This document shows, in pieces, positions 17,823 through 28,481 of a stretch of DNA of 41,065 nt. The position numbers and the translations under genes were made by a program. The notes beneath the pieces were generated by a model. That model did not search any database. It saw nothing but the letters and a program-made list of their open reading frames with translations, and had not been told where the DNA came from. The stretch comes from Alphaproteobacteria bacterium (lineage in GTDB: Bacteria; Pseudomonadota; Alphaproteobacteria; Sphingomonadales; Sphingomonadaceae): the NCBI GenBank assembly GCA_018819685.1, contig JAHJPT010000070.1:1-41065 (forward strand), given 5' to 3'. Position 1 is the first letter of the stretch. The number at the start of each line of letters is the position of its first letter.

Positions 17823-18560
17823 ATGACAGCTGGCGTGAATTCCTGGGTACCTTACTGTGGGGTTGCTCCCGTCCCGGCCGAGTGGTGGCTGCGGTTCAAC
17901 TTCGATCCGGTGCTGATGCTGGTGCTGGCTGCGGCTCTTGGCTGGGCATTGCTTCGCGGCGGCCTCGATGGCGAAGGCCGCAGACGCGCCATCGCCGCTG
18001 CCGCCATCTTCGCCTTCCTCTACATCTCGCCCTTCTGCGCACTGGGTTCGTCCCTGTTCGCGGTGCGGGCGGTTCATCACGTCCTCCTGGTTGCGGCCCT
18101 CGCCCCGCTCATCGCCGGGTTCGGCCCCGTGCAGCGGGCATTTCGGCACCTGTCCCTGGCGCAGCTCACGGCGCTGCACATGCTGATCTTCTGGGCCTGG
18201 CACGCTCCGCCGCTCTATTCCGCAGCTCTCTCCAGCGACGCGCTGTTCTGGATCATGCAAGCCAGCCTGCTGCTCTCCTCCGCCGGCTGGTGGGCCCGTT
18301 TGCGGCAGGCCGATGCAGGCGCCGCCGTGATCGCGCTTCTGGCAACCATGGTCTTGATGGGGCTATTGGCCGCGCTGCTGATCTTCGCCGGTCGCGCCTT
18401 CTACCAACCGCACTGGCTGACGACCCAGGCCTGGGGGTTTTCGCCGCTCGAGGACCAGCAATTGTCCGGCATCCTAATGTGGGTGCCCGGGTCGGCCATC
18501 TATCTGCTGGTCGCGCTCGCCGTGCTCTACCGATCGTTGCGACTTGAACCCGCCCGGTGA
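17823..18560 (+). CDS. ctaG: CtaG-type (caa3) cytochrome oxidase assembly protein
   Basis: A 245-residue polytopic membrane protein of the caa3-CtaG family (distinct from the Cox11 type of CtaG). Six or seven hydrophobic helices are visible. Family landmarks are Arg-Ala-Val-His-His-Val, Leu-Ile-Phe-Trp-Ala-Trp-His-Ala-Pro-Pro, and a C-terminal Asp-Gln-Gln-Leu-Ser-Gly-Ile-Leu-Met-Trp-Val-Pro-Gly segment. These proteins are needed for assembly of caa3-type oxidases, probably in copper delivery. It opens the oxidase cluster. Its TGA overlaps the GTG start of the b561 gene, so the two are coupled. Confidence 0.87.
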   Translation: MTAGVNSWVPYCGVAPVPAEWWLRFNFDPVLMLVLAAALGWALLRGGLDGEGRRRAIAAAAIFAFLYISPFCALGSSLFAVRAVHHVLLVAALAPLIAGFGPVQRAFRHLSLAQLTALHMLIFWAWHAPPLYSAALSSDALFWIMQASLLLSSAGWWARLRQADAGAAVIALLATMVLMGLLAALLIFAGRAFYQPHWLTTQAWGFSPLEDQQLSGILMWVPGSAIYLLVALAVLYRSLRLEPAR

Positions 18561-19234
18561 ACCTGTCCGAGTTCTTCCGTGATTGGTCGAAGAGCTATCG
18601 CGACCGCGGGAAGTACACCCCTGTGGGGGTTACCTTCCATTGGACCATGGCCGCACTCGTGATCTATCAATTGCTCTCCGGCTGGTGGATGCAGCGCTAC
18701 CTTGTCGGGGCCGACAAGCTGGATGCCTATGCCCGCCACAGCGGTCTCGGCCTCACTCTGCTGCTGCTGGGCGCGCTTCGCCTGCTTTGGCGGCTGATGG
18801 TGCCCGGGCCGATCAACGATGCCGACAACGCCGGTTGGCGCAGCGGGGTGGCGCATCTGATCCACGCCATGTTCTACACGCTGTTCGTGATCATGCCGCT
18901 GAGCGGGTACATGCTATGGTCCGCGATCCAGCCTGCCCGGCCGCTGCATATCGCCGGGCTGGTGCGGATACCCCCCATGCCGTTCCAGGACTTCTCGCCA
19001 GAATGGCAGTCGTGGGTGCTGGAAAGCTCGCTCGACGTGCATGTCTTCTGCGTCGTGGTTCTCGCGCTTCTGATCCCGGCCCACGCAGGAGCGGCGATCA
19101 AGCACCACTTCTGGGATCGGGACGACGTGTTCGAAGGCATGCTGCCGGAAGTGCCGGATACCGACTGGAATCCCGCAGGCGCGAGGCGAAAGCCGCAAGG
19201 GGGGCAATCTCCTCCTCGTGCAGAAGCCGGCTGA
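18557..19234 (+). CDS. Cytochrome b561 family membrane protein
   Basis: A 225-residue membrane cytochrome b. Four helices carry likely haem b ligands: His28 in Phe-His-Trp-Thr, His61, a His in His-Leu-Ile-His-Ala-Met-Phe-Tyr and a His in Asp-Val-His-Val-Phe. The end of the domain, Lys-His-His-Phe-Trp-Asp-Arg-Asp, is typical of bacterial b561. Such proteins pass electrons between quinone and periplasmic acceptors. The GTG start at 18557 is in a GTGA overlap with ctaG. The last 137 bp overlap the tail of the diheme cytochrome gene on the opposite strand, adding an unusual Gly/Pro/Arg-rich tail. In this context it may feed electrons to the cytochromes c next door. Confidence 0.88.
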   Translation: MNLSEFFRDWSKSYRDRGKYTPVGVTFHWTMAALVIYQLLSGWWMQRYLVGADKLDAYARHSGLGLTLLLLGALRLLWRLMVPGPINDADNAGWRSGVAHLIHAMFYTLFVIMPLSGYMLWSAIQPARPLHIAGLVRIPPMPFQDFSPEWQSWVLESSLDVHVFCVVVLALLIPAHAGAAIKHHFWDRDDVFEGMLPEVPDTDWNPAGARRKPQGGQSPPRAEAG

Positions 19235-19844
19235 TATGAGTCATCGCGCCGTTCGGATCGCCATAGCGTTCTCCAGTCCGCCAGTGTCGCAGCTGCGCCT
19301 CCAGATAGGGCGCGGGCTGCGCAGCGAGCGGCGGATTGCCCTGCCCTCTCCCCACCCCGTCGCGACCGTGGCATTCTGCGCAGGAGATCAGGCCGCGCTG
19401 CGGATCGCCAAAGAAATAGAGCCGCGCGATGCGGGGAGAACAGACCGCATCCGGCAAGGGCCCGTCGGCGACGGTGCGCGGCACCTCGGGGGGGACGGGC
19501 ATTGCTGCGTAATGGAACGCAACCTTTTGGCGGGAGTGCCAGTCGAGCTGGTCGGCGATCCAGACCATTTGCGGATGCCGCCTGAGACCCGTGGCGAAAT
19601 AATCGAGCTGCCGGGCGATATAGCCGGGGTTGAGCCCGGCGAGCCGCGGCACGAGCTTGCCATCGCCCTCTCCACGAAGACCGTGACAGGTGATGCAGGC
19701 ACCGCGCGCGCCGGCGTCGCCTCCGGACAGCGCCACCAGTTCGCCGGTGCGCTCCCACTTCCCGACGGTCGGCTCGGCTTCGTTGCAGGCGGTCGCAGCG
19801 GCGGAAGCGAACAGGATCAAGAACGAACGGAAGAGCCGGGCCAT
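19098..19844 (-). CDS. Diheme cytochrome c lipoprotein
   Basis: A 248-residue exported cytochrome. A lipoprotein signal ends in Ala-Thr-Ala-Cys20. Two haem motifs follow, Cys50-x-x-Cys53-His54 and Cys155-x-x-Cys158-His159, each opening a class I cytochrome c domain with later Met residues available as axial ligands. It resembles c4/c553-type diheme proteins that shuttle electrons to oxidases. It is the only gene of the cluster on the reverse strand: its start faces the monohaem cytochrome gene across 54 bp with an inverted repeat, and its last 137 bp run antisense to the b561 gene. The C-terminal 30 residues beyond the domain are not family-like. Confidence 0.85.
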   Translation of the reverse strand: MARLFRSFLILFASAAATACNEAEPTVGKWERTGELVALSGGDAGARGACITCHGLRGEGDGKLVPRLAGLNPGYIARQLDYFATGLRRHPQMVWIADQLDWHSRQKVAFHYAAMPVPPEVPRTVADGPLPDAVCSPRIARLYFFGDPQRGLISCAECHGRDGVGRGQGNPPLAAQPAPYLEAQLRHWRTGERYGDPNGAMTHISRLLHEEEIAPLAAFASRLRDSSRYPALPAACLRTRRPDPRSGA

Positions 19845-19849
19845 CCCGA

Positions 19850-19881
19850 CGGGAACCTTCCCCGCACCGTGACGGTTCCCG
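19850..19881. promoter_or_regulatory. Inverted repeat between divergent cytochrome c genes
   Basis: CGGGAACC (19850-19857) and GGTTCCCG (19874-19881) are perfect 8-base complements separated by 16 bases, placed in the 54 bp gap between the divergent cytochrome genes. Each arm also lies close to one start codon. It could be an operator controlling both directions or an mRNA hairpin; the function is inferred from position only. Confidence 0.4.
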
Positions 19882-19898
19882 AGCGAGCGACCCGCCGA

Positions 19899-20309
19899 GT
19901 GCATCGCGAAGGGCAAAAAAGCCGCTGGTGGTGGCGCCATACGAATTCCGCCGTATGGGCCGCTGCCGCGCTGGCATTGGCCGGCTGCAAGGAGGTTCCC
20001 GGCCCCCGTTATGTTCGCAGCGGAGCCGATGCAGAGAGGGGATTGGCGCTGATCAAGGAAACAGGTTGCGCAGCATGCCACGAAATTCCGGGCATCGGCT
20101 GGCCCAGGGGCCGGTTGGGCCCATCGCTGGTCGGCTTCGACGATATCGGTCTGATCGCCGGAGCGCTTCCCAACACCCCGGCCAATCTCGCCCACTTCGT
20201 CCGTAACGCACCCGAAGCAAAGCCCGGTTCGACGATGCCCGCCATGCCGCTTACTCAGCCACAAGCCGCCGATGTCGCGGCCTATCTCTACGGCCTCGAC
20301 GATGCTTGA
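19899..20309 (+). CDS. Monohaem cytochrome c lipoprotein
   Basis: A 136-residue cytochrome c. A GTG at 19899 gives an Arg/Trp-rich N-terminus, a short hydrophobic segment and a lipobox Leu-Ala-Gly-Cys30, followed by Cys57-Ala-Ala-Cys60-His61 and a Met-Pro-Ala-Met-Pro region supplying the axial Met. The protein ends in the typical Ala-Ala-Asp-Val-Ala-Ala-Tyr-Leu helix of oxidase-linked cytochromes c. It overlaps the coxB start by 8 bp, so the two are cotranscribed. The start is uncertain because no ATG fits. Its likely role is as immediate electron donor to the oxidase. Confidence 0.85.
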   Translation: MHREGQKSRWWWRHTNSAVWAAAALALAGCKEVPGPRYVRSGADAERGLALIKETGCAACHEIPGIGWPRGRLGPSLVGFDDIGLIAGALPNTPANLAHFVRNAPEAKPGSTMPAMPLTQPQAADVAAYLYGLDDA

Positions 20310-21324
20310 CGCGTTCTGGGGATGGCCGCCGCCGGTGCTCGATCCGGCAGGTCCCTATGCGGACAGCGTAACCGTGCTCGCTTGGGCGCTGTTCGGCATG
20401 GGCGTGATCGTCACCTGCGTCATAGTCGCCGCCTTGTGGGTGGCGGCCAAAGGACCGGACAAATGGCGTCGCAGGCTGGGCGGCGAGCGCGCCGTGTGGA
20501 TCGGCGGGATCGCCTTTCCCGGCATCGTATTGACCGTTCTGCTGGTGTGGGGCCTGCTGCTCACCGCCTCGCTGACCGAGGAGATCAGCGGCGATGAAAT
20601 GCGCGTGCGCGTGACCGGGCATATGTGGTGGTTCGATGTCGAGTATCTGGACGCCGATGGCGATGTGCTGCTGCGCGATGCGAACGAGCTGCATCTGCCG
20701 GTCGGCGAAAAGGTGGTGCTGGAACTGCTGAGCGACGATGTGATCCATTCCTTCTGGGTGCCCCATCTTTCGGGCAAGAAGGACATGGTCCCCGGCCGTC
20801 TCAACGAATTGCTGGTGCAGGCGGACCGGCCCGGACGGTTCGGCGGGGTTTGCGCCGAGTATTGCGGGGGGCCGCATGCACTGATGGGCTTCGTCGCGGT
20901 GGCGCATGAAGCGGGTGAATGGGAAGCGTGGTTGCAGGCGCGGCTCGAGGGCGGCGACAGCCCCGCCGCTCTGCCAGCGCGAACCGGCCCGATGCCTGCG
21001 GTGGTCCGAGATACAGACTTGCCCGCGCGAACGGATCAAGCCGCCGCCGCAATTGCTGGCCGCGCTCTGTTCATGGACAGCGGCTGCGGCGCCTGCCACC
21101 GCGTCGCCGGGACCGAGGCCAACGGGCTGGCGGGGCCAGATCTGACCCATGTGGGTGCACGCCTGACGCTGGGCGCAGGCATCCTGCCCAATCATCGCGG
21201 GACGATGATGGGCTGGATCGGCGACAGCCAGTCGATCAAGCCGGGCAATCGCATGCCGACCTACGACCGGCTTTCCGCCGACGAGCTCGAGGCTATCGCA
21301 ATCTGGCTGGAGCAACAGAGGTGA
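20302..21324 (+). CDS. coxB: Cytochrome c oxidase subunit II fused to cytochrome c (caa3 type)
   Basis: A 340-residue subunit II. Two membrane helices at about 25-48 and 65-90 are followed by the CuA cupredoxin domain with His149, Cys184, Glu186, Cys188, His192 and Met195, a full ligand set. A fused cytochrome c domain follows with Cys262-Gly-Ala-Cys265-His266 and an axial Met at 318. This is the caa3 architecture, in which the tethered haem passes electrons to CuA. There is no N-terminal signal peptide beyond the first helix. It overlaps the upstream cytochrome c gene and the alternative GTG of the subunit I gene. Confidence 0.94.
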   Translation: MLDAFWGWPPPVLDPAGPYADSVTVLAWALFGMGVIVTCVIVAALWVAAKGPDKWRRRLGGERAVWIGGIAFPGIVLTVLLVWGLLLTASLTEEISGDEMRVRVTGHMWWFDVEYLDADGDVLLRDANELHLPVGEKVVLELLSDDVIHSFWVPHLSGKKDMVPGRLNELLVQADRPGRFGGVCAEYCGGPHALMGFVAVAHEAGEWEAWLQARLEGGDSPAALPARTGPMPAVVRDTDLPARTDQAAAAIAGRALFMDSGCGACHRVAGTEANGLAGPDLTHVGARLTLGAGILPNHRGTMMGWIGDSQSIKPGNRMPTYDRLSADELEAIAIWLEQQR

Positions 21325-21347: not shown

Positions 21348-23900
21348 ATGGCCGGGCGCGAATCCGAAACCGGCTTCGATCACGATCTCTACAAGCTCTT
21401 CCCGGTTCACGCCCCGCGCCCCGAAGGCGAGGTGGAGGAACTCGACCGGATCTGGAAAGCGCCCACCGGCTGGGGGCTGCTGAAGGGCATCAACAACAAT
21501 TACATCGGGTTTTTCCACCTCTCCACGGCCTTTCTGTTCTTCCTGCTCGCCGGGATCCTCGCGCTGGGGATGAGGGTGCAACTGGCCGCTCCGCTGCAGG
21601 ATTTCCTGCCGCAGGAGACCTACAACCAGTTCTTCACCATGCACGGCACCATGATGATGTTCCTGTTCGCCGTGCCCGCGGTGGAGGCGGCGGGGATGCT
21701 GCTGCTGCCGCAGATGCTGGGAGCGCGCGAACTGCCGTTCCCCCGCATGGCCGCCTACGGGTTCTGGATGTTCCTTATCGGCGGCCTCTCGTTCTTCGCT
21801 TCGATCTTTTTCAGCCTCGCCCCCAGCGGCGGCTGGTTCATGTATCCGCCGCTGACCAGCATCGCCTTCTCGCCCGAGATCAACACGGATTTCTACCTGC
21901 TGGGGATCGGCTTCATCGAAATCAGCGCCATTGCCGGCGCGGTGGAGATCATCGTCGGCGTCCTGCGATCCCGGGCACCGGGGATGACTCTCGACCGGAT
22001 GCCGATCTTCGCCTGGGCGATGCTGGTGTTCGGCGTGATGATCATCCTGGCTTTCCCCGCGATCATCGCCGCCACCTCGCTGCTGGAACTGGAGCGGGCG
22101 TTCAACTGGCCCTTCTTCGATCCCACCCGCGGCGGCGACCCGCTCCTATGGCAGCATCTGTTCTGGTTCTTCGGCCACCCGGAAGTCTACATCATCTTCA
22201 TCCCCGCCGCGGGCATGATGAGCATGATGGTGGCCACCATCGCACGCACGCCGCTGGTCGGCTACCGGCTGAACGTGGTCGCGCTGGTGGCAACGGGGTT
22301 CATCAGCTTCGGCGTCTGGGCGCATCACATGTTCGCCACCGGCATGCCGCGCGTCTCGACCGGCTATTTCAGCGCCGCGAGCATGGCGGTGAGCCTGCCC
22401 GCGGGGATACAGGTGTTCTGCTGGATCGCCACGCTGGCGAGCGGGAGAATTCGCTGGTCCGCGCCGGCGCTGTTTGTGACCGGCAGCATTGTAACCTTCA
22501 CCATCGGCGGGCTGACCGGGGGGATGGTGGGAATGGTGCCGTTCGACTGGCAGGCGCACGACACCTACTTCATCGTCGCCCACCTGCATTACGTGCTGAT
22601 CGGCGGCATGGTGATGCCCCTGTTCGGCGCGTTCTATTACTGGGCCGGGATGACCAGCAAGAACGCGCTGTCCGACCGGCTCGGCCGGTGGGTGTTCGCG
22701 CTGTTCTTCAGCGGCGTGCACATCACCTTTATGCCGATGCACCTGACCGGCTTCCTCGGCATGCCACGCCGAGTCTACACCTATCTGCCGGGCCGCGAGC
22801 TCGACCTGGTTAACCTGATCTCGACCGTCGGTGCCTTCGTCATTGCCGCCGGGGTCGCGCTGTTCCTGTATGACCTGGCGCGCAATTTCCGCTTCACCGC
22901 AGCAGAATCGGCCGGCAACGTTTACGATGCCGGGACGCTGGAATGGCTGCCCGCCGGCCTCTACTCCAGTCGCTCGTTGCCGCTGGTGAAGAGCCGCGAT
23001 CCGCTGTGGGACGATCCCGATCTGGCCAAGGATACGCAGGAAGGGCGCTACTTCCTGCCCAACAGCGCCACCGGGCTGCGGGAGACGATCATCACCAGCC
23101 CGATCAATGCCGAGCCGCAATATCTGCAGATCATCCCCGGACCCTCGCCATTTCCCACGGCGGCGGCGTTCTTCACAGCCGCGTTCTTCCTGTCGCTTAC
23201 GGTGCAGGCCTATGCCTTCGCGATGTTCTGCGGTGTGATCGCGGTGGGCTGCATGTTGCGCTGGATGTGGGACAGCGATCCGCCCCTCGAACAGAAGACC
23301 GCCGATATCGGCGCCGGGATCACGGTGCCGGTCGCCATTACCGGCCCCTCGAGCCATGGCTGGTGGGGGCTCAATGTCCTGATGGTGGTCATGGGCATGA
23401 TCGGCGCCATGATGCTGTTTTCCTATCTCTACCTGTTCGGCCTGCGTCCGGACATCTGGATCGCCGCGCCGCCGCTGGAACAGACGCTGGGTATCCTTGG
23501 GCTGTTCGGAGCGACGACGGCCCTCGCCTGGCTCTCACGCCGCATGCTGTCCTGGCGCAAGCCCGGGATTCCCGCTGGACAGTTGCCATGGATCACCGCG
23601 GCGCTCGCTGCGACCTGTTTGGCCCTTGGCGTCTGGTGGGACTGGTCCGGCTGGAGCGAAGCAGGGCTCGATCCCGTGGCCAGCGGGCAAGGCGCCACGG
23701 TGTTCGCGGCGGTGGGTTATCAGGGCTGCCTGACCGCAATCAGCGCGCTTCTGGCCGGTTATCTCGGCTTTCGCAGCGGTCGCGGGCTGATAACCCCGCC
23801 GGCCAGCGTCACGCTCGACACAGTCAGCCGCTTCATCGGCTACGTCGGCGTGCAGGGCGCGGTCCTGGCGCTCGTCATCCGGCTGCTCCCGGGAGGGTAA
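21348..23900 (+). CDS. Fused cytochrome c oxidase subunits I and III
   Basis: An 850-residue protein joining subunit I (about 1-560) to a subunit III-like domain (about 640-850). Metal ligands are complete: His99 and His414 (low-spin haem), His412 (haem a3), and His277, His326 and His327 (CuB), with Tyr281 positioned for the His-Tyr crosslink. The D-channel glutamate is kept in Gly-His-Pro-Glu279-Val-Tyr. However, the segment that normally reads Pro-Thr-Gly-Ile-Lys is Pro-Ala-Gly-Ile-Gln here (351-355), so the K-channel lysine and threonine are gone. The D-channel entry residues usually Asn, Asp and Asn read Met, Glu and Ala. The ATG at 21348 with a GGAGG site is chosen; a GTG at 21321 overlapping the coxB stop is possible. 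Confidence 0.93.
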   Translation: MAGRESETGFDHDLYKLFPVHAPRPEGEVEELDRIWKAPTGWGLLKGINNNYIGFFHLSTAFLFFLLAGILALGMRVQLAAPLQDFLPQETYNQFFTMHGTMMMFLFAVPAVEAAGMLLLPQMLGARELPFPRMAAYGFWMFLIGGLSFFASIFFSLAPSGGWFMYPPLTSIAFSPEINTDFYLLGIGFIEISAIAGAVEIIVGVLRSRAPGMTLDRMPIFAWAMLVFGVMIILAFPAIIAATSLLELERAFNWPFFDPTRGGDPLLWQHLFWFFGHPEVYIIFIPAAGMMSMMVATIARTPLVGYRLNVVALVATGFISFGVWAHHMFATGMPRVSTGYFSAASMAVSLPAGIQVFCWIATLASGRIRWSAPALFVTGSIVTFTIGGLTGGMVGMVPFDWQAHDTYFIVAHLHYVLIGGMVMPLFGAFYYWAGMTSKNALSDRLGRWVFALFFSGVHITFMPMHLTGFLGMPRRVYTYLPGRELDLVNLISTVGAFVIAAGVALFLYDLARNFRFTAAESAGNVYDAGTLEWLPAGLYSSRSLPLVKSRDPLWDDPDLAKDTQEGRYFLPNSATGLRETIITSPINAEPQYLQIIPGPSPFPTAAAFFTAAFFLSLTVQAYAFAMFCGVIAVGCMLRWMWDSDPPLEQKTADIGAGITVPVAITGPSSHGWWGLNVLMVVMGMIGAMMLFSYLYLFGLRPDIWIAAPPLEQTLGILGLFGATTALAWLSRRMLSWRKPGIPAGQLPWITAALAATCLALGVWWDWSGWSEAGLDPVASGQGATVFAAVGYQGCLTAISALLAGYLGFRSGRGLITPPASVTLDTVSRFIGYVGVQGAVLALVIRLLPGG

Positions 23901-23904
23901 GGCC

Positions 23905-24183
23905 ATGCAGGACTTTCGCAATCGGCACGACTTCCGCACGCTTGTCCTGGCCTTCATCGTCTGGGCGGCGCATTTCACCCTGCTGTGGGTCGCCAGCGTC
24001 ACCTTCCCCGGCGAACCCGCCGCCCGCTGGCTGGCGCTCGCGTTCACCACCTTCGCGCTGGGTGCACTTTCTTGGCTTTTCCTGCGCGCCGGCAAACCTA
24101 AGCTCGCCAGCGTTGCGGGACTCGGACTTGCCATCGCTACTGTCGGTACGATCTACGATTCCATTCCACCGCTGATCGGGTGA
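23905..24183 (+). CDS. Small membrane protein at the end of the oxidase cluster
   Basis: A 92-residue protein with three predicted helices (about 12-32, 42-62 and 67-88) beginning four bases after the subunit I/III stop. The tight spacing suggests it is a small accessory subunit or assembly protein of the oxidase, such as a subunit IV-like helix bundle. I do not recognise a named family, and the role rests on context only. Confidence 0.7.
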   Translation: MQDFRNRHDFRTLVLAFIVWAAHFTLLWVASVTFPGEPAARWLALAFTTFALGALSWLFLRAGKPKLASVAGLGLAIATVGTIYDSIPPLIG

Positions 24184-24570: not shown

Positions 24571-25068
24571 CTATCCGTAGCCGAGCGCGAGAATCAGCCC
24601 GTAAGCGGTTTGCGCCAGGACAGTTATGAGCGGAGTGTTGCGGCCATAGTTGAGGCCGAAGGCGCCTGGCGGTTCGATCCTTCTGGTCCGGTCCGGCCCA
24701 TCGAATTCGGTCGCCAGGCGCGGATGGATGTAAGGGAGCATTGGCAGGAACACCGCTATCAGGAACAGGCCGTGGGCGGCGCCCAGCAGCACGCCTACCC
24801 ACCAATCCGATCTGCCGAGGGTTGCGAACAGCAGAGCATAAACGAAGGCGAACAGCCACCCTCCCAAGAGATAGAGCGCATAGCCCCATACAATCGCCTT
24901 TCGGCGGCTGGAAACCACGAAGGTGCCGAACAAAAAGGGCAGGCTCAGGCGGGACAGGCCGATAAGCTGAGCAGTTTGCAGCACAGATGCCATGATAGCC
25001 GTTGCCACGAGTCCCCAGACGGCAGGCGATATCCAGTTGCTGATGACCTCGTGTAGCGCTGGGTTCAT
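24571..25068 (-). CDS. Four-helix membrane protein
   Basis: A 165-residue integral membrane protein with predicted helices at about 15-35, 60-84, 88-112 and 146-163. Between the third and fourth helices lies a conserved-looking segment with Pro-Tyr-Ile-His-Pro-Arg and Gly-Leu-Asn-Tyr-Gly-Arg-Asn-Thr-Pro. I recognise no named family. Its start overlaps the GH15 stop by four bases, so it is the last gene of an SDR, GH15, membrane protein operon. Confidence 0.75.
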   Translation of the reverse strand: MNPALHEVISNWISPAVWGLVATAIMASVLQTAQLIGLSRLSLPFLFGTFVVSSRRKAIVWGYALYLLGGWLFAFVYALLFATLGRSDWWVGVLLGAAHGLFLIAVFLPMLPYIHPRLATEFDGPDRTRRIEPPGAFGLNYGRNTPLITVLAQTAYGLILALGYG

Positions 25069-26879
25069 GCCTCCCCCTCTCCTGCGGCATAGGCCGCGTC
25101 GACAAAAGCCGCGTGAGAGAGACCCTGTGGGAAGTTGCCGAGCATCGTGTGTGAGGCGGGATCATACTCTTCTGCCATAAGCCAAAGGTCGTTGGCCGCT
25201 TCGAGTAGCGCGGCGATGCGTCTGCGTGCTGCCGCCTTCTCGCCGCGCAGCGCAAGATATTCGCACGCCCAAAAGCCGCAGGCGAGGAATGAACCTTCGG
25301 GTTCCTCCATTCCATCCACCCCGCGCGCATAGCGCCAGACGAATGGTCCTTGCGCCAGTTCGTCTTCGATACGATCGAAGGTGCTGCACATGCGCGGATC
25401 GTCCGCGGCTATGAGACCGATGCGGGGCAGCAGCAGGACGCTGGCGTCCAGATGCTCGTGACCGAATGCTCCGGTAAAGGCGCCGCGCTGTGCGTTCCAT
25501 CCATGCTCGAGAACGGCGTCCTTGATACGGCGCCTTTCCTCCTCGAATCGTAGACGGTCGTGGAGCAGCGGAACGGTGCGATCAATCTCCAGCAGGCCGT
25601 CGAGCGCGGCCCAACACATTGCTTTCGAATAGACGTGATGCATGCGGCGCCCGCGGATCTCCCATATCCCATTGTCGGGCCGGTCCCACATCTCGCATAC
25701 AGTGCGCCCGAACCCACGCAGGCGGCTTGCTTCGGAAGCGTCGAATTCGCCTCCATTTGCCACGAATTCGCGCGCTGCCAGCACGACGGAACCGTAGCTG
25801 TCGAGTTGCAGCTGATCCTTGGCATTGTTTCCGGTCCGCACCGGAGCGGAGCGCCGGTATCCTTCCAGGCCGGAAACGACCTTCTCCTTCAGATCGCTGC
25901 GCCCGTGAATATCGTAGAGCGGGCGGAGACCGGGCTGGTCGCGTTGTGTCGCATGCATCAACCAATGGAGATAATGCTTTGCTTCGAAATCAAATCCGGC
26001 TTGCATGAAGGCGGCAAGAACCAAATGGGCATCGCGCATCCAGCAATAGCGATAATCCCAATTGCGCGATCCCCCAATCCATTCTGGGAGCGACGTCGTC
26101 CCGGCAGCCGCCACAGCTCCGGTCTCTCCGCTGGTGAGCAATCGAAGCACGATCAGGCTGCGCTCGACCGCCTCGCGGAACGGTCCGCGATAAGTGATCC
26201 GTTCGGTCCAGCGCCTCCACCAGTCGATCGTCGTCTCCAGTTTTTCTAGATTTTCAGCCCCGAGCGGGGGGATAACGCCCGCGTCGCGCCGACAGAAGGA
26301 GAGCGACGCCTGACGCGTCGCACCCGCTTCGAGCCGCTCGTTCGCGGTTAGCCCCCCGTCTGTCACTTCAGCATTCGCAATATCCGTCTGGAGGAGCACG
26401 ACATCGGCTCCATACTGGCAGGCCCACCCCATTTTCCCGCGCGTTTGCAGCTTTGGTCGCTTCCGGGTGGGCGGGCGCGGCTGACAGTCGAGCCGTACGA
26501 CTGGGCGTCCCTCTGTCGCTTCGACCAGTCGGATAAGCTGGCGTTCCGGTTCGATGCGCCCCGCGAGGCCTTTGACAGGGCTATGGATAAAATCAGTCAC
26601 CGTGAAGCTGCCATCTTGCGCATCGAAGCTGGTTCGCAAGACCGGAGTGCCCGCTTCGAAGCTGCGCCGGGTCACGGCTTTTCCGCCGGCATGAATCCGA
26701 AAATGGCCGCCCGCGAGATGATCCAACAGTCCTGCGAAAAGCGGCGGATCGGAGATATTGGGCAGGCAAAGCCAGTCGATGCTACCTTCGCGTGAGACGA
26801 GGGCACAGGCTTGCAGATTGCCGATAGCGGCATAGTCGCTGATCGGCGGATAGGACTGGTCGGGCCCAGGGCCCCGCAT
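25065..26879 (-). CDS. Glycoside hydrolase family 15 protein
   Basis: A 604-residue GH15 protein. An N-terminal domain begins with Ile-Ser-Asp-Tyr-Ala-Ala-Ile-Gly-Asn and Gly-Ser-Ile-Asp-Trp-Leu-Cys, as in bacterial and archaeal glucoamylase or trehalase-type GH15. The catalytic (alpha/alpha)6 barrel has Asn-Trp-Asp-Tyr-Arg-Tyr-Cys-Trp-Met-Arg-Asp-Ala, and the C-terminal Glu-Glu-Tyr-Asp-Pro ... Leu-Gly-Asn-Phe-Pro-Gln block carries the catalytic base. Substrates in this family include alpha-glucans and trehalose; the choice cannot be made here. No signal peptide, so cytoplasmic. Stop and start overlaps on both sides put it between the SDR and the membrane protein in one operon. Confidence 0.92.
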   Translation of the reverse strand: MRGPGPDQSYPPISDYAAIGNLQACALVSREGSIDWLCLPNISDPPLFAGLLDHLAGGHFRIHAGGKAVTRRSFEAGTPVLRTSFDAQDGSFTVTDFIHSPVKGLAGRIEPERQLIRLVEATEGRPVVRLDCQPRPPTRKRPKLQTRGKMGWACQYGADVVLLQTDIANAEVTDGGLTANERLEAGATRQASLSFCRRDAGVIPPLGAENLEKLETTIDWWRRWTERITYRGPFREAVERSLIVLRLLTSGETGAVAAAGTTSLPEWIGGSRNWDYRYCWMRDAHLVLAAFMQAGFDFEAKHYLHWLMHATQRDQPGLRPLYDIHGRSDLKEKVVSGLEGYRRSAPVRTGNNAKDQLQLDSYGSVVLAAREFVANGGEFDASEASRLRGFGRTVCEMWDRPDNGIWEIRGRRMHHVYSKAMCWAALDGLLEIDRTVPLLHDRLRFEEERRRIKDAVLEHGWNAQRGAFTGAFGHEHLDASVLLLPRIGLIAADDPRMCSTFDRIEDELAQGPFVWRYARGVDGMEEPEGSFLACGFWACEYLALRGEKAAARRRIAALLEAANDLWLMAEEYDPASHTMLGNFPQGLSHAAFVDAAYAAGEGEA

Positions 26880-27901
26880 CAGCCGCGCCGCCTTCCGAGA
26901 ACAAGCCGGGAGGCGCCGATGAGCGCAAGGCCGAGCGCCGCCGCCCCCAGCGCCGAGGCCCCGCGATGCATCGTCAACCACTGCTGGTGACTGTGCTCTC
27001 GGGCCTCAGCGTCGAACCGGCCATGCGCACCATGATCCCCTGGCACCGGTTCGTAGAGATTGTTCTTCCGGTCGGGCGATACGAGTTCGCTGTCCTGCTG
27101 GCCGGAAATTGCGGTTCGGGCGAGATAGCGGTCGAGCAGGGGAGAGGCGAGCCGGTCACCGATGATCGCCTTCAGCGTGGGGAAGCCGACTTTGAGCGAC
27201 TTGCGCCGGTTGTGAGCGGCAAAATGGATCGCCTCGGCGGCAACCTCGGGCTGATAACTGGCACTGGCGGGGCGGGGCTTTTTCGGCAGGTTCGTCTTGA
27301 TCCAGTCGAACTGCGGGGTGTTGACGCCGGGAAGTTGGACCATGCTTACGTGGACCTGCGATCCGGAATGGATCAGCTCCGAACGGATGGAATCGTGAAA
27401 ACCCTGGATGGCGTGCTTCGCGCCGCAATAGGCGGACTGAAGCGGAATGCCGCGGTAGGCAAGAGCGCTACCGACCAAGACGATGGAACCTCGGTTGCGC
27501 GGCAGCATCCGTTTGAGTGCCGCGCGCGTTCCATAGACCTGGCCCAAATAAGTGACCTGCGTCACCCGGTCGAAATCTGCCAGCGACATATCCATGAAGC
27601 GCGACAGCACACCGGCAAATGCAGCGTTGATCCAGATATCGATCGTGCCGAGCTCGTTTTCGATCCGCTCGGCAGTTTCCTCGAGCTCTTCGGCATTGGC
27701 GACATCGCACGGGCAGATCAGCGCCTTGCCGCCGACCTGCTCAATCTCGCGGCGGGCGCCTTCGAGCCCGTCCATTCCCCGGGCAATCAGCGCGATGCGA
27801 GCGCCGTCCCGCGCAAAGCGACGGACCACGGCACGGCCCACGCCAGCCGAGGCTCCGGTGACGACCACGACGGGCGGTTCAGGGACGAAGCGGTTGCGCA
27901 T
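26879..27901 (-). CDS. Short-chain dehydrogenase/reductase with C-terminal membrane tail
   Basis: A 340-residue SDR. The NAD(P)-binding Thr-Gly-Ala-Ser-Ala-Gly-Val-Gly motif starts near residue 15, the Asn-Ala-Ala segment is near 90, and the catalytic Tyr-x-x-x-Lys is in Ser-Ala-Tyr-Cys-Gly-Ala-Lys. An extra 70-residue tail ends in a hydrophobic helix (Ala-Leu-Gly-Leu-Ala-Leu-Ile-Gly), so the enzyme may be membrane-anchored, as in a known long SDR subgroup. The substrate is unknown. ATG at 27901 is the start; an 8-codon ORF with a much stronger ribosome site lies about 70 bp upstream. It leads the operon with GH15 and the membrane protein. Confidence 0.9.
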   Translation of the reverse strand: MRNRFVPEPPVVVVTGASAGVGRAVVRRFARDGARIALIARGMDGLEGARREIEQVGGKALICPCDVANAEELEETAERIENELGTIDIWINAAFAGVLSRFMDMSLADFDRVTQVTYLGQVYGTRAALKRMLPRNRGSIVLVGSALAYRGIPLQSAYCGAKHAIQGFHDSIRSELIHSGSQVHVSMVQLPGVNTPQFDWIKTNLPKKPRPASASYQPEVAAEAIHFAAHNRRKSLKVGFPTLKAIIGDRLASPLLDRYLARTAISGQQDSELVSPDRKNNLYEPVPGDHGAHGRFDAEAREHSHQQWLTMHRGASALGAAALGLALIGASRLVLGRRRG

Positions 27902-27999: not shown

Positions 28000-28103
28000 C
28001 ACGCGGCCTCCTCATTCCCGCTTTTCTCGCTCCCCGTTTCTCGGAACGAACACGAGCTTGCAGAGACGGGGAACCAAGGCCGCATTGACGCGCTCGCAAA
28101 TTG

Positions 28104-28481
28104 ATGGAACCGATCGGAAAGAAGCGCTGGGCAATCGCGGAAGGCTATATTCCCTCCGGCAGCCTGGATCAGGACGACCCGGCGCTGGTCAGCCATGAGA
28201 CGGCCTGCATTCTCAACGCCGGTGACGGCGAGGCACATCTCACTATCACGATCTTCTTCAAGGATCGCGAACCCGTCGGGCCGTATAGGGTCTCAATAGC
28301 ACCCCATCGCACGCTCCACCTACGTTTCAACGATCTGGAAGAACCGGAACCAGTGCCACGCGACACGGACTATGCCAGCATCATCGAATCCGACTTACCC
28401 ATCGTCGTGCAGCATACACGGCTCGATTCTAGGCGAAGCGAGATTGCGCTTCTTTCCACTATGGCATTTGGAGAGAGCTGA
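28104..28481 (+). CDS. Anabaena sensory rhodopsin transducer (ASRT)-family protein
   Basis: A 125-residue protein with the ASRT-family beginning Ile-Gly-Lys-Lys-Arg-Trp-Ala-Ile-Ala-Glu-Gly-Tyr-Ile-Pro, then Ser-His-Glu-Thr-Ala, Phe-Phe-Lys-Asp-Arg-Glu-Pro-Val-Gly-Pro and Pro-Ile-Val-Val-Gln-His-Thr-Arg-Leu. The family is a small beta-sandwich domain proposed to bind small molecules, probably sugars. Only some members work with rhodopsins, and no rhodopsin gene is in this window. It is divergent from the SDR/GH15 operon and next to a gluconokinase, which fits a sugar-linked role. The ATG at 28104 is used; a TTG three bases earlier is less likely. Confidence 0.88.
   Translation: MEPIGKKRWAIAEGYIPSGSLDQDDPALVSHETACILNAGDGEAHLTITIFFKDREPVGPYRVSIAPHRTLHLRFNDLEEPEPVPRDTDYASIIESDLPIVVQHTRLDSRRSEIALLSTMAFGES

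Follow-up and report, generated by a model that had tools for sequence, protein, structure and literature searches.

In textbook accounts of haem-copper oxidases, Lys362 of the K-channel and the asparagine gate keep the protons used in chemistry apart from those that are pumped, and laboratory changes at these sites block or uncouple the enzyme. Positions are given here in Rhodobacter sphaeroides subunit I numbering (Rs); residues of the protein under study were mapped onto it and the codons checked. According to the accessible part of PMC12901375, replacing the lysine by Met in a model enzyme of family A all but stops the reduction of haem a3; with Asp, Thr or Ser in place of Asn139 (bovine N98), O2 is still reduced but pumping is abolished. 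Enzymes of the B and C families run lysine-free K-routes (PMC3084760, PMC12901375; accessible parts), and the B-type Thermus enzyme has Thr and Ser at the positions of K362 and T359 (PMC12901375). In the text available from PMC10341450, Asn207, Ser197, Ser200 and Ser201 are among the residues bounding the simulated D-channel volume, the K-channel wall residues include 315, 324, 327, 356, 363 and 365, and A319 serves as a gauge of channel width. K-channel loss within family A is already in print: in the available portion of PMC8239418, the channel is lost seven times in an archaeal tree under one scenario, which its authors find less plausible. The accessible part of PMC10715153 holds nothing on these channels.

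Fused COX1-3 operons and the a-III operon type are named in the available parts of PMC4013037 and PMC6431628, where subtype a of the A1 oxidases (COX1-3 fusion) of Degli Esposti has a proteobacterial COX1 fused to a COX3-like region, as in the gene described here; a missing lysine and gained glutamates are not mentioned in those parts. In the coxMNOP oxidase (Ccaa3; A1 subtype a-III) of P. pseudoalcaligenes KF707, CoxM has two haem c motifs; for one coxMNOP cluster, a deletion has been made and the promoter has proved very weak (PMC5492768, accessible part). Our literature search, which covered freely readable main texts and left subscription papers and supplements outside its scope, found no account of Gln362 together with glutamates at 117, 198 and 207.

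Identification of the coxN-like gene and its product

The window, a stretch of 41,065 nucleotides from an alphaproteobacterium of the Sphingomonadaceae (contig JAHJPT010000070.1), contains a coxN-like gene that is a single open reading frame with an ATG start and 850 codons followed by a stop (Table 1). Residues 53–498 of the product matched the Pfam family COX1. In sequence comparisons with solved chains, the protein was closest over its full core to those that we take to be A-family chains (E values from 2e-115 downwards), and chains presumably of the B-type ba3 enzyme matched only at E 3e-9 to 5e-6. The score against the profile TIGR02891 (CtaD_CoxA) was 632.8 bits, just under the curated cut-off of 670.75. 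A structure model built on a 41-sequence alignment gave VIA Z scores of about 40–45 against A-family chains. By sequence and fold, the protein is a family A haem-copper oxidase. The gene upstream encodes a subunit II with both a CuA site and a fused cytochrome c, which is the arrangement that defines a caa3-type oxidase; its single haem c motif differs from the two of KF707 CoxM.

The C-terminal region of the model is subunit-III-like by fold only, mainly through one protein. The first-ranked Foldseek hit was 2yev_A, the I+III chain of Thermus thermophilus caa3 (TM 0.82 by query; 30% identical), and VIA aligned 760 residues of 2yev_A over model residues 40–847 (Z 42.9, rmsd 2.2), so that the same I+III fusion fold extends over that length. 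Most other VIA rows ended near residue 560. Pfam COX3 had no match in any of the 41 aligned members, 22 of which have at least 780 residues. With the aa3 oxidases of R. sphaeroides and P. denitrificans the protein shares the core fold (rmsd 1.4–1.7 Å over about 490–505 residues), the metal ligands, Glu286 and Tyr288; unlike the window protein, these enzymes have Lys362, Thr359, Asn121, Asn139 and Asn207, all of which are replaced here, and lack the glutamates gained at 117, 198 and 207.

Table 1. Genes and channel residues of the coxMN locus in the window (residue features are named in window numbering, with the corresponding Rs position)
Feature	Position	Strand	Evidence
Cytochrome b561-type membrane protein, likely associated	18557..19234	+	Ni_hydr_CYTB E 5e-27
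c-type cytochrome, two matched stretches, start provisional	19098..19928	-	Cytochrom_C E 2e-11
Small c-type cytochrome upstream of coxM, start provisional	19830..20309	+	Cytochrom_C E 6e-6
coxM-like subunit II, C-terminal cytochrome c domain (one CXXCH), CuA motif CAEYCGGPHALM	20272..21324	+	Pfam COX2, Cytochrom_C; motif and haem count
coxN-like subunit I (residues ~40-560) fused to subunit-III-like region (~600-847)	21348..23900	+	Translation; COX1 E 7e-136; model mean pLDDT 90.8; Foldseek and VIA match to 2yev_A
Glu113 at Rs 117, gained carboxylate, helix II	21684..21686	+	E 103/113, Q 8/113; no acid in 61 canonical
Met117 at Asn121	21696..21698	+	Asn 0/113 clade, 61/61 canonical
Glu128 at D-channel entry Asp132	21729..21731	+	Alignment
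Ala135 at Asn139	21750..21752	+	Alignment
Glu191 at Rs 198, gained carboxylate, helix IV	21918..21920	+	E 113/113; G 61/61 canonical
Glu200 at gate residue Asn207	21945..21947	+	E 105/113; N 61/61 canonical
Glu279-Val-Tyr281, Glu286 and active-site Tyr288, kept	22182..22190	+	Alignment, codon check
Thr316 at Ile323, adjoining published K-channel wall residues	22293..22295	+	T 89/121 Lys-less; I 61/61 canonical
Ala352 at Thr359	22401..22403	+	Alignment, codon check
Gln355 at K-channel Lys362	22410..22412	+	Q 113/113 clade, K in 61 canonical
92-aa hydrophobic ORF directly after coxN	23905..24183	+	tblastn matches in 25 relatives' loci

Residues of the proton channels

A sequence-only reading of the gene had reported Gln at Lys362, Ala at Thr359 and Met, Glu and Ala at Asn121, Asp132 and Asn139, with Glu286 and all haem and CuB ligands retained. 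Alignment and codons agree with each of these assignments, and Tyr288 is also kept (Table 1). The ligands H102, H284, H333, H334, H419 and H421 are present together with R481/R482; S299 is unchanged (window S292), and S365 is replaced by cysteine (window C358). The same reading had named a lysine elsewhere in the K pathway as an observation that would speak against it, and no lysine lies inside any long modelled helix of the window subunit I. Its account of the D-channel, correct in its letters, was incomplete: Asp132 is kept in most members of the clade described below, where the main change is the lost asparagine gate together with three gained glutamates. It overlooked these glutamates, G117 to E, G198 to E and N207 to E, and also I323 to T. 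Within the long helices modelled between residues 50 and 513, the only acids at least three residues from a helix end were, in window numbering, E113, E191 and E200 and otherwise E247, E249 and D509.

We compared these residues with the A1 fingerprint of Pereira and Sousa, converted to Rs numbers (PMC3084760, accessible part). At the D-channel set Asp132/Asn121/Asn139/Asn207/Tyr33/Ser142/Ser201/Glu286 the window protein has E/M/A/E/H/G/A, and only Glu286 is kept; at the K-channel set it has Q and A for Lys362 and Thr359, with Ser299 and Tyr288 kept. A frame error, an alignment slip and chance were ruled out as sources of these differences, the motifs being gap-free against four solved A-family chains and Gln362 recurring throughout the clade described below.

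The exact combination Met121, Glu132 and Ala139 was found, among the aligned subunits I, only in the window protein and in L086, which is 82% identical to it; in L156, Glu132 and Ala139 are accompanied by Ile121. Asp132 and Ser139 were the residues in 28 of a further 29 family loci that were read, from 39 other family matches listed. On this alignment the exact set is a variant of a small local lineage.

Phylogenetic distribution of Lys362 loss

The alignment held 182 subunits I, made up of the window protein, 150 loci, one Rhodobacter chain and 30 later loci. Short fragments (L004 and the second ORFs of L058 and L022) and copies of the window (L001, L085) were omitted before the trees were built. 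No usable match came from L002 and L003, and no blastp row from L150, so all three stand outside the counts; by eye, L150 carries Gln362 and the Glu117, Glu198 and Glu207 motifs. One alignment, and no other, lacked L032, L037, L038 and L053 (4 of 44 loci), in which the matched stretch contains stop codons. Trees were calculated in FastTree with the channel columns excluded and were midpoint-rooted, with no outside root.

Lys362 was present in 61 of the 182 sequences, and every one of these also had Asn121, Asn139, Asn207, Gly198, Ile323 and Thr359, with Asp132 in 60; this canonical set, a non-random sample, was drawn from sequences similar to the window protein or belonging to its order, with one Rhodobacter chain added. 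The remaining 121 lay together on a single side of the tree, with support of 0.98. A CoxN-like clade, recognised by Gln362 and Glu198 within one branch and including the window protein, accounted for 113 of them (support 0.669; 88 members and 0.871 in the first, smaller tree). Gln362, Glu198, Glu286 and Tyr288 were invariant in this clade (113/113 each), Glu207 occurred in 105 and Glu117 in 103, with Gln in a further eight, and Asn121 in none. Glu198 required a single change on the first tree. The metal ligands were kept across all 113, the lone exception being a gap at H102 in one truncated sequence. Position 132 was more variable (Asp 79, Glu 8, Asn 20, Ser 6), and 26 members, L031, L032 and 24 other loci, have neither Lys362 nor an acid at this D-channel entry. 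Asn139 was kept in 31 members and absent from 82, of which 70 have Ser or Thr.

The suggestion in the sequence-only reading that the altered K-channel is a feature of CoxN-type oxidases is borne out by the uniform Gln362 of the clade. The feature is not tied to fused I+III oxidases: Gln362 is also carried by unfused members, among them Bradyrhizobium L031, which has its COX3 as a gene of its own downstream, so the subfamily feature is wider than the fusion, and the fusion was rejected as the cause of Gln362. For comparison with the coxMNOP oxidases (A1 subtype a-III), Bradyrhizobium L031 and L032 fall in the clade of the window protein (Gln362, Glu198) and have coxM upstream; the window differs from these oxidases in that its subunit-III-like region is fused and no separate COX3 was seen adjoining coxN.

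Eight Lys-less sequences are sisters of the clade and keep Asn121, Asp132, Asn139, Gly198 and Asn207. One of them, L054, combines Gln362 with Glu286. In the other seven (L152, L153, L157, L158, L159, L160 and L161) position 286 is Trp and position 362 is Ala, Ser, Gly or Thr, so that both key channel residues are gone; these Trp286 oxidases retain Asn121, Asp132, Asn139, Asn207, Tyr288 and the metal ligands.

The simplest order of events would be loss of Lys362 first and rebuilding of the D-channel in the large clade afterwards. Since the tree has no outside root, we infer the direction, a lysine lost and not gained. The published K-channel losses in family A concern an archaeal tree (PMC8239418, available portion), and the present clade is alike in having lost that channel.

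Evidence on the two proton routes

Hydroxyl residues are common along the K-route of the Lys-less branch: Thr323 was found in 89 of 121 Lys-less sequences against 0 of 61 with the lysine, Ser327 in 97 of 121 against 23 of 61, and Ser352 in 119 of 121 against 16 of 61. At least one Ser, Thr or Asn stood at 356 or 359 in 108 of the 113 clade members. Repeated compensation by a hydroxyl swap between 356 and 359 was rejected as strong evidence, with one coincident branch against 0.1 expected; as the tree holds roughly one such event, the swap gives weak support. An acid at the subunit II entry (Rs E101, at -13 to -11) showed no special conservation in Gln362 sequences, being present in 33 of 76 of these and in 21 of 31 Lys362 sequences with the motif, in a loop that varies; the motif was missing in 11 of 87 and 18 of 49 sequences, respectively.

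Because the Lys-to-Met change all but stops haem a3 reduction in the model enzyme (PMC12901375, accessible part), the clade naturally carries a change at a site where a substitution disables that enzyme, and in 70 of 113 members Ser or Thr at 139 as well. The K-route might be dead, with all protons, chemical and any pumped, taken up through a rebuilt D-route from Glu117, Glu198 and Glu207 to Glu286. The absence of Lys362 from the whole 121-member branch would suit this, as would the fixation of the gained acids on or next to D-channel helices. From helix spacing we infer that Glu117, one turn from 121, and Glu198, which adjoins 197, face the D-channel. We nevertheless regard a dead K-route as unlikely, given that hydroxyls gained or kept along it (Thr323, Ser327, Ser352, Ser/Thr at 356 or 359) would be odd if it were unused and that 26 of 113 members have no acid at D-channel entry 132.

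On the D-route, the Asn gate is lost and most members have Ser, Gly, Thr or Ala at 139, which suggests weak pumping or none. Decoupling of this kind does not obviously fit the 31 members with Asn139, and in the 26 without an acid at 132 a D-type entry is not evident. Were the substitutions neutral drift or retuning, the enzyme could pump normally along a full D-type route through the glutamates, which could stand in for the asparagines as water-ordering groups; the invariant Glu286 and the Asn139 kept in 31 members are compatible with this. Normal pumping seems improbable to us, though, in view of the invariance of Asn121, Asn139 and Asn207 in all 61 canonical sequences and the decoupling caused by Asn139 variants (PMC12901375, accessible part).

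Gene neighbourhood

The cytochrome genes upstream of coxM recur in relatives. A homologue of the small c-type cytochrome adjoins coxM in L005, L006, L007 and L010 and in the family loci L086–L114, and homologues of both the minus-strand c-type cytochrome, upstream of coxM, and the cytochrome b561-type gene, on the same side, are found in L005, L006, L007, L008 and L010. The order b561 (+), c-type cytochrome (-) and small c-type cytochrome (+) is common to L005, L006, L007 and L010. The cytochromes of window positions 18557–20309 are possible electron donors.

Two separate COX3-type genes after coxN, the mark of coxMNOP (A1 subtype a-III) operons, were not seen in the window, where coxN is followed by the 92-aa ORF and then by reverse-strand genes of other families. 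Family searches with this ORF gave no family above cut-off; it could encode a small accessory subunit. A scan for promoters and terminators gave nothing clearly above chance. Further downstream, a DUF6789-like gene (below its cut-off) adjoins a glycoside hydrolase family 15 gene at 24571–26981 (-), and a match to the Anabaena sensory rhodopsin transducer (PF07100, E 4e-52) lies at 28101–28481 (+).

Genomic occurrence

A CoxN-like match at E ≤ 1e-200 was present in 38 of the 199 family genomes searched, the window's included, and missing from three other genomes of the window's genus. A draw across the class gave 10 genomes out of 142, again including the window's, with a match at E ≤ 1e-120. 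Each of the 37 other family carriers had two or more COX1-type matches at E ≤ 1e-60. In 36 of them there was a higher-scoring COX1 match (E ≤ 3.1e-154), which we take from its score to be canonical CtaD; G036 was the only carrier with no COX1 match at that level. The window's own genome carries Lys362 in an aa3 fragment (L004) and also contains the COX1 fragments L002 and L003, the latter two presumably of cbb3 type judging from a neighbouring cytochrome frame. Given the second COX1 matches of the carriers and the other COX1 fragments of the window's genome, the CoxN-like enzyme seems to serve as an auxiliary oxidase alongside a canonical aa3.

The very low promoter activity of one published coxMNOP cluster (PMC5492768, accessible part) could be taken to mean that these genes encode decaying or non-respiratory oxidase-like proteins. 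This we hold to be very improbable: the metal ligands and Tyr288 are conserved clade-wide, the CuA ligands are present in the commonest subunit II motifs, coxM adjoins the coxN-like gene in most relatives, and the gene is carried by 38 of 199 family genomes.

Discussion

We lean towards reading CoxM-CoxN as a caa3-type oxidase from a branch of family A in which both proton-uptake routes have been rebuilt around a conserved O2-reducing centre and pumping is weakened. As the metal ligands are kept, the enzyme is taken to be active, and it would still reduce O2 with electrons from cytochrome c. Protons for reduction of the binuclear centre would be carried along a K-route in which Gln362, Ser/Thr side chains and water replace the lysine, somewhat as in the B and C family oxidases. 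Protons would also enter by a D-type route, where the Asn121/Asn139/Asn207 gate has given way to aliphatic or small residues and Glu, and where Glu117, Glu198 and Glu207 would feed Glu286. The two feeds would be combined, the lysine-free K-route leading, with weakened pumping as the outcome. For the window protein this reading means an active caa3-type enzyme whose K-route lacks a lysine and whose D-route is rich in carboxylates, and which probably pumps poorly.

K-channel loss in family A has been published; the set of Gln362 with Glu117, Glu198 and Glu207 was not found in the freely readable literature. More tentatively, these genes may represent a widespread A-family lineage that lacks the K-channel lysine, has a carboxylate relay where the Asn gate would be and consists of naturally non-pumping or low-pumping aa3-type enzymes, with sister oxidases lacking both Lys362 and Glu286.

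Residue fingerprints used for sorting A-family oxidases, and for inferring pumping from sequence, fail on these proteobacterial genes. A clade in which the active site is kept while Lys362 and the Asn gate are replaced offers natural variants for testing whether the K- and D-channels have fixed roles, whether an enzyme can pump only with the Asn gate, and whether proposals for an H-pathway stand up.
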